From an uncultured Ruminococcus sp. (GTDB taxonomy: Bacteria > Bacillota > Clostridia > Oscillospirales > Acutalibacteraceae): DNA of 64,000 nucleotides. Below, in pieces: positions 53,460 to 58,934 of the stretch; position 1 is the stretch's first letter; the number at the start of each line of letters is the position of its first letter. The stretch covers positions 32,835-96,834 of the forward strand of contig CAJONB010000007.1 of assembly GCA_905235715.1 (NCBI GenBank). The letters are read 5' to 3'. A program made the translations under genes and the position numbers. A model generated the notes under the pieces. It was given only the letters and a program-made list of their open reading frames with translations. It was not told the DNA's origin and did not search any database.

Positions 53460-55538
53460 ATGGATAAATATACAGGCAAAAAGCTTGACGGAAGATACGA
53501 AATACGTGAGCTGATCGGCGTCGGCGGCATGGCGAATGTGTACCATTGCTACGACACGATTGACGCGCGCGAGGTCGCAATCAAGATTTTGAAGGACGAA
53601 TTCCTCGACAATGAGGATTTTATCAGACGCTTCAAAAATGAGAGCAAGGCTATCGCCATGCTGAATCATCCGAACATCGTCCGTGTATACGACGTCAGCT
53701 TCGGCGATATGATTCAGTATATCGTCATGGAATATATCGACGGTATCACTCTCAAGGAATATATCGATATGCAGGGCGTGCTGGACTGGAAGGAAACCGT
53801 CCACCTCACGACCCAGATTTTGAAGGCGCTTCAGCACGCACATGAAAACGGTATTGTTCACCGCGATATCAAGCCGCATAATATCATGCTTTTGCAGGAT
53901 GGCACCATCAAGGTGACGGACTTCGGTATTGCGCGCTTTTCCTCTAACGCGACCCGCACCATGACCGAGCAGGCTATCGGTTCGGTGCATTATATCGCGC
54001 CCGAACAAGCACGCGGTGAAAAGACCGACGGTAAGACAGATATCTACTCCGTCGGCGTGATGATGTATGAAATGCTCACCGGCACGCTGCCCTTTGACGG
54101 CGACTCCGCCGTTTCTGTCGCGCTCATGCAGCTGCAGGCAAATCCGCGCCGCCCGCGCGAGATTAACCCCGATATTCCTGAGGGTCTCGAGGAAATCACC
54201 ATAAAGGCGATGCAGAAGAATCCCGACGACCGCTATCATTCCGCGGTGGAAATGCTCTCGGATATAGAGCGCTTCCGTCTGAATCCGAGCATCCGCTTCG
54301 GCTATCAGTTCCAAGCTGTCAAGCGTAATGCGGATATCGGCAAAAAATCAAAGACCTCCTCGCGGTCCGATGGGGATGATGACGTTCCGCAGAATATGAT
54401 TTATGATGACGACGCGCCTGTTCGCAGTCCCGCGCTGTCCGCAATCAAGGGCGTTATCATCGCCGCAATCATTGCGCTGCTGGTGTTCGGCGGCATCGCG
54501 CTGTATAAGGATTATGTCGCCTCCAAGCCGGAGGAGCTTGAGGTGCCGAACTTTGTCGGTATGACCCTTAAGGAAGCCCAAACACTCAGCAACGGTAAAT
54601 TCAACTTTACGCAGGAGTATCGCTACAGCGCGGCGATTCCTGTTGATACCATTATCGAACAGAATCCCTCCGGCGGCGCTAAAAAGGTGCAGGAAGGCTC
54701 TACGATCGAGCTGGTTGTTAACTCTGCCGATACCGAGGTCGTTGTACCGTACCTCAACACAGCTATCGGTACCGAAGATATTGTCGCCCACCTGGAGGCG
54801 GTAAATCTTGTTCCGAAGATTCTTTATGTTGAAAGCGAGCAGACCGCGATGAAGGTCGATGCCGTATTCCCTCCTGCCGGTTCTTCGCTGAAAATCGGCT
54901 CGACTGTTTATGTTTTTGTCAGCAAGGGTATCACAAAAGAGCCCGTCACAATGCCTGCTATCAAGGGCTATACCGCTGATGAAGCAGTTAAGATGCTTGA
55001 GGAGGCAGGAATTACCGATTATGCGATAGAGTATGACGACTATATCCAAGCGGATAAGGACGAGGTCGTCCGGCAGAATCCGCTGCAGGGCAGTGTGATT
55101 TCTCCTGACTATAAGGTAACAATCGTCTGCTCTAAGGGCGAGAATCAGGACAAGACTCAGACCATCCTTGTTGACCTGCCGAAGGAGGAGCAGGATCAGG
55201 TTCGCTTGACCGTTTTGATTGACGGCGCAATTGATCAGGATAACAGCAAGGAGGTTATCCCTGCTTACAGTCCGACCTATACCCTCAAATTCAAGGCAAA
55301 GGATAATGTAACCGTTCTGATTCTTCTCAATGACGAGAAATACCGCGAGTATACCGTCGATTATAAGACCGGCTATGTAGAGCTTGTCAACGCCTATTCA
55401 TATACGGTACAAAATCCCGAAACGCCGACATCCGCTTATGTCGACCCCGAACCTCAGACGGAATATGTTCCCGAGGAGGCGGATATCAATCCCGATGAAA
55501 CGGCGATTATGGATGATGACGGCGTATACGAGCTATGA
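53460..55538 (+). CDS. PASTA-domain Ser/Thr protein kinase (PrkC/Stk-like)
   Basis: GVGGMANVYHCYD, VHRDIKPHNIML, DFGIARF; one TM helix and PASTA repeats. Confidence 0.96.
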   Translation: MDKYTGKKLDGRYEIRELIGVGGMANVYHCYDTIDAREVAIKILKDEFLDNEDFIRRFKNESKAIAMLNHPNIVRVYDVSFGDMIQYIVMEYIDGITLKEYIDMQGVLDWKETVHLTTQILKALQHAHENGIVHRDIKPHNIMLLQDGTIKVTDFGIARFSSNATRTMTEQAIGSVHYIAPEQARGEKTDGKTDIYSVGVMMYEMLTGTLPFDGDSAVSVALMQLQANPRRPREINPDIPEGLEEITIKAMQKNPDDRYHSAVEMLSDIERFRLNPSIRFGYQFQAVKRNADIGKKSKTSSRSDGDDDVPQNMIYDDDAPVRSPALSAIKGVIIAAIIALLVFGGIALYKDYVASKPEELEVPNFVGMTLKEAQTLSNGKFNFTQEYRYSAAIPVDTIIEQNPSGGAKKVQEGSTIELVVNSADTEVVVPYLNTAIGTEDIVAHLEAVNLVPKILYVESEQTAMKVDAVFPPAGSSLKIGSTVYVFVSKGITKEPVTMPAIKGYTADEAVKMLEEAGITDYAIEYDDYIQADKDEVVRQNPLQGSVISPDYKVTIVCSKGENQDKTQTILVDLPKEEQDQVRLTVLIDGAIDQDNSKEVIPAYSPTYTLKFKAKDNVTVLILLNDEKYREYTVDYKTGYVELVNAYSYTVQNPETPTSAYVDPEPQTEYVPEEADINPDETAIMDDDGVYEL

Positions 55539-56414
55539 TAAAGACAGAAGGATTAATCGTTAAAATCACCGGCGGCTTCTATTATGCAGAGGCCGCCGAC
55601 GGCATACATGAATGTAAAGCGCGCGGCGTCTTTCGCAAGCGCGGCACCTCACCTCTGGTAGGCGACAGGGTGGATATCACCGTTCCCGACGACGGCTACT
55701 GCTCGATTGACGCGATCCATGAGCGGAAGAATTCGCTTGTTCGCCCCGCGATAGCGAATCTGGATATTTTAATGATAATCAGCTCGGTCAGAGAGCCGAA
55801 CGCGAATCTGTATCTGATTGATAAGATGACCGCCGCTGCTGTCAATAAGAGTATCGAGCCTGTCGTCGTCTTTACAAAGACCGACTTAGGCTCCGCAACT
55901 GAAATGGTTGAGATTTACAGAAAGGCCGGTATCCGCTGCTTTGAGTTCTCCGCCGTTGATATGCGGGGGATAGAGGACGTCAAGGCGGTGCTCAAGGATA
56001 AGGTCACTGCCTTTTGCGGCAACTCCGGCGTCGGAAAATCCACCTTGCTCAATTCGCTGTTTGCTGTCCTTGCAGACGGGTGAAATCAGCGACAAGCTCG
56101 GCAGGGGCAGACATACGACCCGCACCGTTGAGCTGTTCAAAAAGCACGGCGGCTACATTGCCGATACGCCCGGCTTCTCTACCTTGGATATTGAGCGCTT
56201 TGAACTGATTCGCAAGGACGAGCTGAAATTCGCCTTTCCCGAATTTGAACCGTATTTCGGCACCTGCAGATTCAATTCCTGCAACCACCTTTGCGAAAAG
56301 GGCTGCAGCGTGATTGAAGCCGTCGAAAACGGCGTAATCCCGAAGTCCCGCCACGACAGCTACGTCCGTATGTACAACGAGGTCAAGGACATCAAGGACT
56401 GGCAAATGACATAG
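55535..56414 (+). pseudogene. rsgA: Ribosome small subunit GTPase RsgA, split by an apparent frameshift near 56060-56075
   Basis: Frame 1 ends CGNSGVGKSTLLNSLFAVLADG*; the next frame continues LSLQTGEISDKLGRGRHTTRTVELFKKHGGYIADTPGFSTL...CRFNSCNHLCEKGC. Confidence 0.9.
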
Positions 56415-56515: not shown

Positions 56516-56544
56516 TTGACATACCGGAATAACAATGTTATATT
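56516..56544 (+). promoter_or_regulatory. Sigma-A promoter of candidate sRNA 1
   Basis: TTGACA N17 TATATT. Confidence 0.72.
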
Positions 56545-56550
56545 ATACAC

Positions 56551-56704
56551 ACAGGAGGTTAATTAATGAAGTAATTAACCAAATGACAGTAAAATCAAAT
56601 CGGTAAGTACAGCGCCGATTCAGATTCAACTTCCTACAGCCTCTTAACATAATCAATATATTTCATCAATAAAAACGCGGGATCCCGATGGGTTCCGCGC
56701 TTTT
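56551..56704 (+). ncRNA. Candidate small RNA 1 with hairpin-embedded two-codon minigene
   Basis: Own promoter; perfect 9-bp hairpin GGTTAATTA-atgaag-TAATTAACC; AATCGG/CCGATT hairpin; terminator cgcgggatcccgatgggttccgcg + tttt; longest ATG ORF inside is 7 codons. Confidence 0.5.
56676..56704 (+). terminator. Terminator of candidate sRNA 1
   Basis: cgcggGATCCCgatGGGTTccgcgc tttt. Confidence 0.65.
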
Positions 56705-56825
56705 ATTTTGATAGGAAGCCCGTTTTTATCTTTACGTGGTGTAACTCAACTTCTTATGGTAAGCCTTTGTATCCTGCAAATTTTTGTTGTTTCTGTGACT
56801 GCTTTGGCTCAGATATAAAAAATCT

Positions 56826-56913
56826 ATTGCAAATTTTAGATAGTTATGATACGATAAGTATGCCAACTAATTTACAATTTAATTCAGTACAATACTTGCA
56901 CTAACAGTATTAG
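56826..56913 (+). repeat. 88-bp promoter/leader module, copy A
   Basis: About 83/88 identical by eye to 58847-58934; contains TTGCAA N17 TACGAT with extended -10 (TGaTACGAT). Confidence 0.9.
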
Positions 56914-57104
56914 TATAATTGTACCCTCTTTTCATACAGTAATATCAAGAGTGTTTTTTGCTTGTGTAAAAAACACAGCTCTGACTTATTAGAACACCTT
57001 GATATTATATTGAAATTTGGGTTTGTACTAGTATTGTAAATTAGTTTGGCGACTATCGGAGCTATGTGTTTTTCGGCGCGTAACTTCGGTTGTGCGCCTT
57101 TTTT
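56862..57104 (+). ncRNA. Candidate small RNA 2 (about 240 nt) from leader copy A
   Basis: Promoter in copy A; inverted repeats TAATATCAAG...CTTGATATTA (56940-57007) enclosing GTGTTTTTT/AAAAAACAC; ends in a UUCG-tetraloop terminator; no sizeable ORF. Confidence 0.45.
57075..57104 (+). terminator. Strong UUCG tetraloop terminator
   Basis: GGCGCGTAAC TTCG GTTGTGCGCC TTTTTT. Confidence 0.92.
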
Positions 57105-57237
57105 ATTTGCATGATTTGCAGAATAAAAAGATTTCTTAGTCCGTTCAGCTTGTTAATGCGCTACAACAAGCGACGGCTATGAAAAATGCGCACAAAGCAG
57201 TGATTTATTTTACACTATTATTAAGGAGGAAAAGATA

Positions 57238-58760: not shown

Positions 58761-58846
58761 TAACCGGTTAGAATTTAGCGGCATCCCCATTATAACGTCT
58801 ATCATTACGGCTTTTTGTTAACTTTGCGGCTGCTTTTGTTAATTTT

Positions 58847-58934
58847 ATTGCAAATCAGAGATAGTTATGATACGATAAGTATGCCAACTGATTTACAATT
58901 TAATTCAGTACAATACTTGCAATAACAGTATTAG
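58847..58934 (+). repeat. 88-bp promoter/leader module, copy B
   Basis: Same TTGCAA N17 TACGAT promoter and downstream sequence as 56826-56913. Confidence 0.9.

Follow-up and report, generated by a model that had tools for sequence, protein, structure and literature searches.

A candidate GntR-repressed small RNA with a seed complementary to the malF start codon in a Ruminococcus-like genome

We propose, with a probability of roughly 0.7, that a short segment of the 64,000-nt stretch of DNA analysed here (the window) encodes a small RNA (sRNA) that base-pairs in trans, is repressed by a GntR-family regulator and blocks translation of malF (Table 1). In the mechanism we envisage, a YtrA-like repressor of the GntR family, whose gene lies elsewhere in the genome, would bind a 24-bp palindrome just past the −10 element and keep the promoter silent until some signal releases it. 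The freed promoter would then give an RNA of ~156 nt with its unstructured 3′ linker exposed, and 22 nt of this linker would pair across the start codon of malF and the codons that follow it, thereby blocking translation initiation. What we computed is the conservation of the promoter/operator module, its co-occurrence with the regulator, the perfect complementarity between seed and target, the accessibility of the seed, and the co-divergence of Usp-like 3′-UTRs and malF between clades; from these we infer transcription, repressor binding and the direction of the effect (repression).

The end of the mRNA of a Usp-like stress-protein gene may likewise block malF, under its own control. Because the same seed lies at the end of this mRNA, malF, the permease gene of a maltose-type sugar ABC importer, appears to be targeted by two different RNAs. 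The wider proposal, on which we are evenly divided, is a two-RNA circuit that would silence malF over its start codon: a genus-wide RNA from the Usp-like 3′-UTR, rewired together with its target between clades, and a newly born GntR-repressed sRNA of this species that combines a regulon promoter with the same seed.

The window genome is a 1.81-Mb metagenome-assembled genome of 152 contigs, and its relatives in the genus are mostly from rumen or gut. Every sequence feature listed in a first-pass annotation of this DNA (promoter, Shine–Dalgarno sequence, two-codon minigene, hairpin arms, second tiny ORF, AATCGG/CCGATT pair and terminator) could be read where it had been placed. Its proposal of a regulatory RNA of ~150 nt agrees with the promoter, the terminator, the lack of a conserved ORF, the unpaired seed with its 22-bp target and the short noncoding transcripts of relatives.

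Table 1. Sequence features of the predicted RNA gene, in window coordinates
Feature	Position	Strand	Basis or remark
Sigma-70-type promoter, TTGACA-N17-TATATT, extended TG	56516–56544	+	aligned with 41 homologous promoters
TTGACA	56516–56521	+	read directly
TATATT	56539–56544	+	read directly; N17 between it and TTGACA
Predicted small RNA, ~156 nt	56551–56706	+	5′ end placed by the −10 and 3′ end by the terminator; each ±5 nt
AGGAGG (Shine–Dalgarno)	56553–56558	+	read directly; 7-nt spacing to ATG
Putative operator of the YtrA-like GntR regulator, 24-bp palindrome GGTTAATTAATGAAGTAATTAACC	56557–56580	.	the 'hairpin' of the first-pass annotation; in RNA can also form a 5′ stem-loop
ATG AAG TAA 'minigene'	56566–56574	+	operator spacer plus half-site; found in none of the 41 other aligned promoters; judged accidental
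Second tiny ORF	56583–56606	+	read directly
Internal stem-loop of the predicted RNA, AATCGG (56598–56603) with CCGATT (56615–56620)	56598–56620	+	fold
Seed ACATAATCAATATATTTCATCA	56647–56668	+	unpaired; antisense to malF (G000:C57); same sequence as the segment before the terminator in the Usp-like 3′-UTR (G000:C106)
Rho-independent terminator	56676–56707	+	stem 56676–56699, then CTTTTATTTT

The predicted RNA and its malF target

The window RNA has its own promoter and Rho-independent terminator and contains no conserved ORF; no ORF of useful size lies downstream of the promoter. At the −35 and −10 elements 11 of 12 positions match, and a TG precedes the −10. Promoter matches in this AT-rich stretch are not above chance (5 observed against 4.0 expected), so the significance of the window promoter comes from its conservation, in that promoter and palindrome recur in relatives. 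Together the two score 66 bits (E = 5e-18 in the window's own genome) under a model built from 12 sequences that included the window copy itself. Folding of a 159-nt RNA gives −40.9 against −23.5 for shuffles (s.d. 3.5; z −4.9), and the predicted fold (~156 nt) has, after its 5′ stem, an internal stem-loop, then 33 nt of single strand and finally the terminator. The element has no match in Rfam at gathering score; the best sub-threshold match is L20_leader (27.2 bits against the 58.7 needed), and rplT is not nearby.

The RNA is known from one species, as no orthologue was found in others. Its two halves, the promoter/operator and the seed, are each conserved in relatives but in different contexts, and its middle (56583–56646) has no match anywhere searched. 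In the majority of the closest relatives, rsgA is followed not by the window element but by tRNA genes or other DNA. In the window, rsgA (55535–56414) is itself split by a frameshift near 56040–56083, giving ORFs 55535–56083 and 56061–56414; the frameshift is either genuine or an artefact of assembly.

All 22 positions of the seed pair with malF of this genome, from nt −2 to +20, and so cover the start codon and first codons. This duplex of 22 contiguous bp (−29.0 kcal/mol) beats all 250 background gene starts, which were drawn from the loci examined. In the fold, the seed is unpaired with a mean probability of 0.98, making it the most accessible of 135 stretches of this length. Within its own genome the exact 22-mer occurs in the window, at the malF start and in the Usp-like 3′-UTR, and nowhere else. 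Across 161 genus genomes, a 21-mer with at most one mismatch is found only at malF starts, in Usp 3′-UTRs (six species) and in the window, and the reversed 21-mer used as a control has no match. A search of all of GTDB r220 with the seed gave one unrelated exact match, a rate of about one chance match per 264 Gb.

The target is an ABC sugar permease gene (BPD_transp_1) downstream of a solute-binding-protein gene. Among NCBIfam models its product most resembles MalF, but the score of 168 bits falls short of the equivalog cut-off (392). We also considered that the seed could be a relic of an antiparallel malF-like gene (minus-strand MKYIDYV) and rejected this: the same 22-mer precedes Usp terminators, and the sequence on either side of it in the window is unlike malF.

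The Usp-like 3′-UTR and its co-change with malF

In the window genome, the 3′-UTR of the Usp-like gene contains the same 22-mer immediately 5′ of its terminator; outside the seed, this 3′-UTR and the window RNA have no clear similarity. Complementarity between Usp 3′-UTR and malF is maintained in ~25 relatives. Two parts stand out in this otherwise poorly conserved 3′-UTR: AACAAAACT, close to where it begins, and the segment before the terminator, variants of which (ATAATCAAT, a gap and TTTCATCA, among others) still pair with malF. At locus L277 (1400–1620, minus strand), and also at L272–L276, the 3′-UTR of the Usp-like gene P0002 has its malF-antisense segment before the terminator.

In a second clade, the malF leader and start differ, and the Usp 3′-UTR has CATCTCCTTTC and AATCTCTCT instead; these are complementary to the Shine–Dalgarno sequence of the malF leader (AAAGGAGA) and to TAAGAGAGATT. 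Pairing of the 3′-UTR with its own malF has a mean z of −4.1 in clade 1 and −2.0 in clade 2. The corresponding duplexes lie at about −17 to −34 kcal/mol (clade 1) and −18 to −23 kcal/mol (clade 2), whereas cross-clade duplexes lie at about −6 to −16 kcal/mol. The clade-2 duplex ranks 3–40 of 250, with four of nine values at 14/250 or worse, within reach of a generic anti-Shine–Dalgarno sequence, and the clade-2 complementarity is partly of this generic kind. Found in ~25 species and co-changed with malF in the second clade, the Usp-like 3′-UTR is a candidate 3′-UTR-derived sRNA.

Operator, regulator and regulon

The AT-rich palindrome, GGTTAAT-N10-ATTAACC, closely follows the −10. When relatives were searched at the nucleotide level, promoter plus palindrome appeared at 75–81% identity in three genomes, with genes for secreted proteins of 143–151 aa directly behind. 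A sequence-only model recovered strong copies from a limited number of species. The palindrome is found in 42 aligned promoters of the genus, including those of the YtrA-like GntR regulator itself. Strong full-length promoter/operator modules occur in 14 of the 15 genomes whose regulator shares 67% identity or more with the query and in 0 of 15 regulator-less control genomes, and a weaker match lies at the regulator promoter of a genome with a distant regulator (G135). Fisher's test of module against close regulator (table 14/1/0/146) gives ~3e-19, a value that ignores shared ancestry, so that independence is overstated, and that leaves out the G135 match.

The regulator, present in 25 of 161 genus genomes, is encoded on another contig of the window genome (G000:C4:12754-13116). 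It is a 125-aa protein with an N-terminal GntR winged helix-turn-helix (PF00392, 42.4 bits; cut-off 27) and a short C-terminal part; its relatives in the PDB are 3ic7, 2du9 and 3tqn, with nearly full-length alignment to the first two. It scores 65 bits with the PmtR equivalog (NCBIfam NF047563), whose cut-off is 200. Almost every regulator this close to the query has the palindrome 7–8 bp past the −10 of its own promoter, which in the window genome reads TATAAT-tgcgtta-TGTTACTTATTTAACCGATTAAC; the exceptions are an arrangement variant in G098 and a weaker match in G147. The regulator is probably autoregulated.

The genes behind strong modules encode QKNI secreted proteins, Chlam_PMP-repeat proteins, an acyltransferase-3 protein and GntR-family regulators. 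Members of the QKNI family (L005 1605–2048, L020, L026 and others) are small secreted proteins ending in ..VDSQKNIMR.., many of them in the GntR regulon, with a weak resemblance, below cut-off, to Inhibitor_I42/chagasin. QKNI genes of regulator-less genomes have a different promoter. The operator-bearing promoter is common to large secreted proteins with Chlam_PMP/beta-helix repeats (L145, L146, L147, L148) and is also found at the acyltransferase-3 membrane protein (L141, L146, L149); these targets hint at a cell-surface regulon. We predict that the regulon includes noncoding RNAs in relatives too, because operator-driven short transcripts are seen in three genomes: G155 and G130 have two pairs of terminator-ended noncoding transcripts, 88–89% identical between genomes, and G147 has one. 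These transcripts (L225, L226, L230, L231, L232) have C-rich, anti-Shine–Dalgarno-like single strands. We rejected malF as their target, as there was no signal (z −0.3 to +0.7).

Such transcripts bear on the rival that survives best, which we nevertheless consider unlikely: that the site is a relic, consisting of the promoter and operator of a regulon gene (for example, of a QKNI protein) that has lost its coding part and retains an old terminator, with a seed that is a chance match or an inert duplicate of the Usp 3′-UTR end. The window leader is most similar to the leaders of QKNI genes, the window genome has no convincing QKNI member (its best match, E = 0.002, is to the signal-peptide end), and a short transcript lacking an orthologue elsewhere would fit decay. 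However, the promoter and operator are intact, as are the 22-nt seed and the terminator, the seed is exactly antisense to a gene start of the same genome and lies where the fold is most accessible over 22 nt, chance matches to it are very rare, and relatives possess bona fide operator-driven short noncoding transcripts. Reading 'ATGACAG...' as the start of a decayed QKNI gene was tried and set aside as ambiguous, the leaders at L006 and L026 having the same CCAAATGA(A)CAG inside the 5′-UTR.

The arms GGTTAATTA (56557–56565) and TAATTAACC (56572–56580) flank the loop ATGAAG, and the 9-bp hairpin of the first-pass annotation is present as sequence; a role for it as an RNA structure is not favoured. 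Across the aligned promoters the 24-bp spacing is constant and both halves are symmetrically conserved (correlation between halves 0.91; shuffling the columns gives 0.11 ± 0.19, and none of 2000 shuffles reaches 0.91). RNAalifold found neither conserved structure nor covariation, the latter being a check proposed in the first-pass annotation. Because the spacing is constant, the halves are symmetric, covariation is absent and the element tracks the GntR regulator, we read the palindrome as behaving like a DNA operator. That it is instead a conserved RNA hairpin, such as a 5′ mRNA-stabilizing stem-loop, is very improbable, although both roles could coexist: the element sits at the 5′ end of transcripts and 7–9 of the 9 outer pairs can form in many members, but just 4–6 can form in some, and neither the RNAalifold result nor the co-occurrence with the regulator fits a purely RNA-level role.

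Lambda bar minigenes combine a Shine–Dalgarno sequence with a two-codon ORF, and the window has both parts. In the other aligned promoters, the counterpart of the Shine–Dalgarno sequence is mostly AACAGG and the loops are of the kind CAACTAAG or CACTGAGG. Since only the window copy has the Shine–Dalgarno sequence and ATG-AAG-TAA (0 of 41 other promoters), we judge the minigene, unlike those of lambda, to be an accident of the spacer inside the predicted repressor-binding site. The earlier idea of a lambda bar-like minigene, in which AGGAGG-ATG-AAG-TAA sequesters or stalls ribosomes or the hairpin serves to sense translation, can draw on a good Shine–Dalgarno sequence, 7-nt spacing and a start–stop minigene that is truly there, but it is the least probable reading given this lack of recurrence and a palindrome that obeys DNA-operator rules, tracks the regulator and lacks RNA covariation. 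Nor is the second tiny ORF conserved.

Relation to known systems and neighbouring features

Published YtrA motifs typically measure 24 bp, their half-sites lying far apart, and that of YtrASa spans the start site (PMC6746942). The predicted system resembles the YtrA subfamily (B. subtilis YtrA, YtrASa, C. glutamicum CGL2947) in its short GntR protein, its 24-bp palindrome at the promoter or start site, its predicted autoregulation and its very small regulon (two strong operator sites in the window genome). It differs in that the predicted targets include noncoding RNAs and secreted proteins, and in that an ABC exporter operon is not seen beside the regulator gene in the window genome.

In E. 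coli, the GntR-type YieP represses the sRNA RydC, which pairs with mRNA (PMC11340327); we predict a similar arrangement here, with a base-pairing sRNA under a repressor of the GntR family. YieP, however, is predicted to be of the FadR type and activates its own gene, and RydC activates cfa; in contrast, pairing over the malF start codon leads us to predict repression. MalH, an sRNA derived from the end of the malEFG mRNA, acts in maltose uptake (PMC8081044). The Usp-like 3′-UTR shares with it a seed directly before the mRNA's own terminator and a link to maltose uptake, but here the 3′-UTR of a stress-protein gene would target malF, and an independent repressor-controlled sRNA shares the seed.

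A limited literature search found no description of a trans-acting RNA circuit in rumen or gut Ruminococcus-like bacteria. The present case names a putative repressor, operator, RNA, seed and target together, and it may be a snapshot of the birth of an sRNA from a borrowed regulated promoter and a seed already used by an mRNA 3′-UTR. It also illustrates how a DNA operator can mimic an RNA hairpin with a minigene.

Further downstream in the window, positions 56862–57108 (247 nt) form a long rod with a terminator (−78.7 kcal/mol, z −8.0) that belongs to no Rfam family; it is possibly a structured RNA or a small mobile element. Its 3′ core (~57032–57108) is found at 84–90% identity in many genus genomes, and positions 56825–56913 have a 94% partial copy at 58846–58934.
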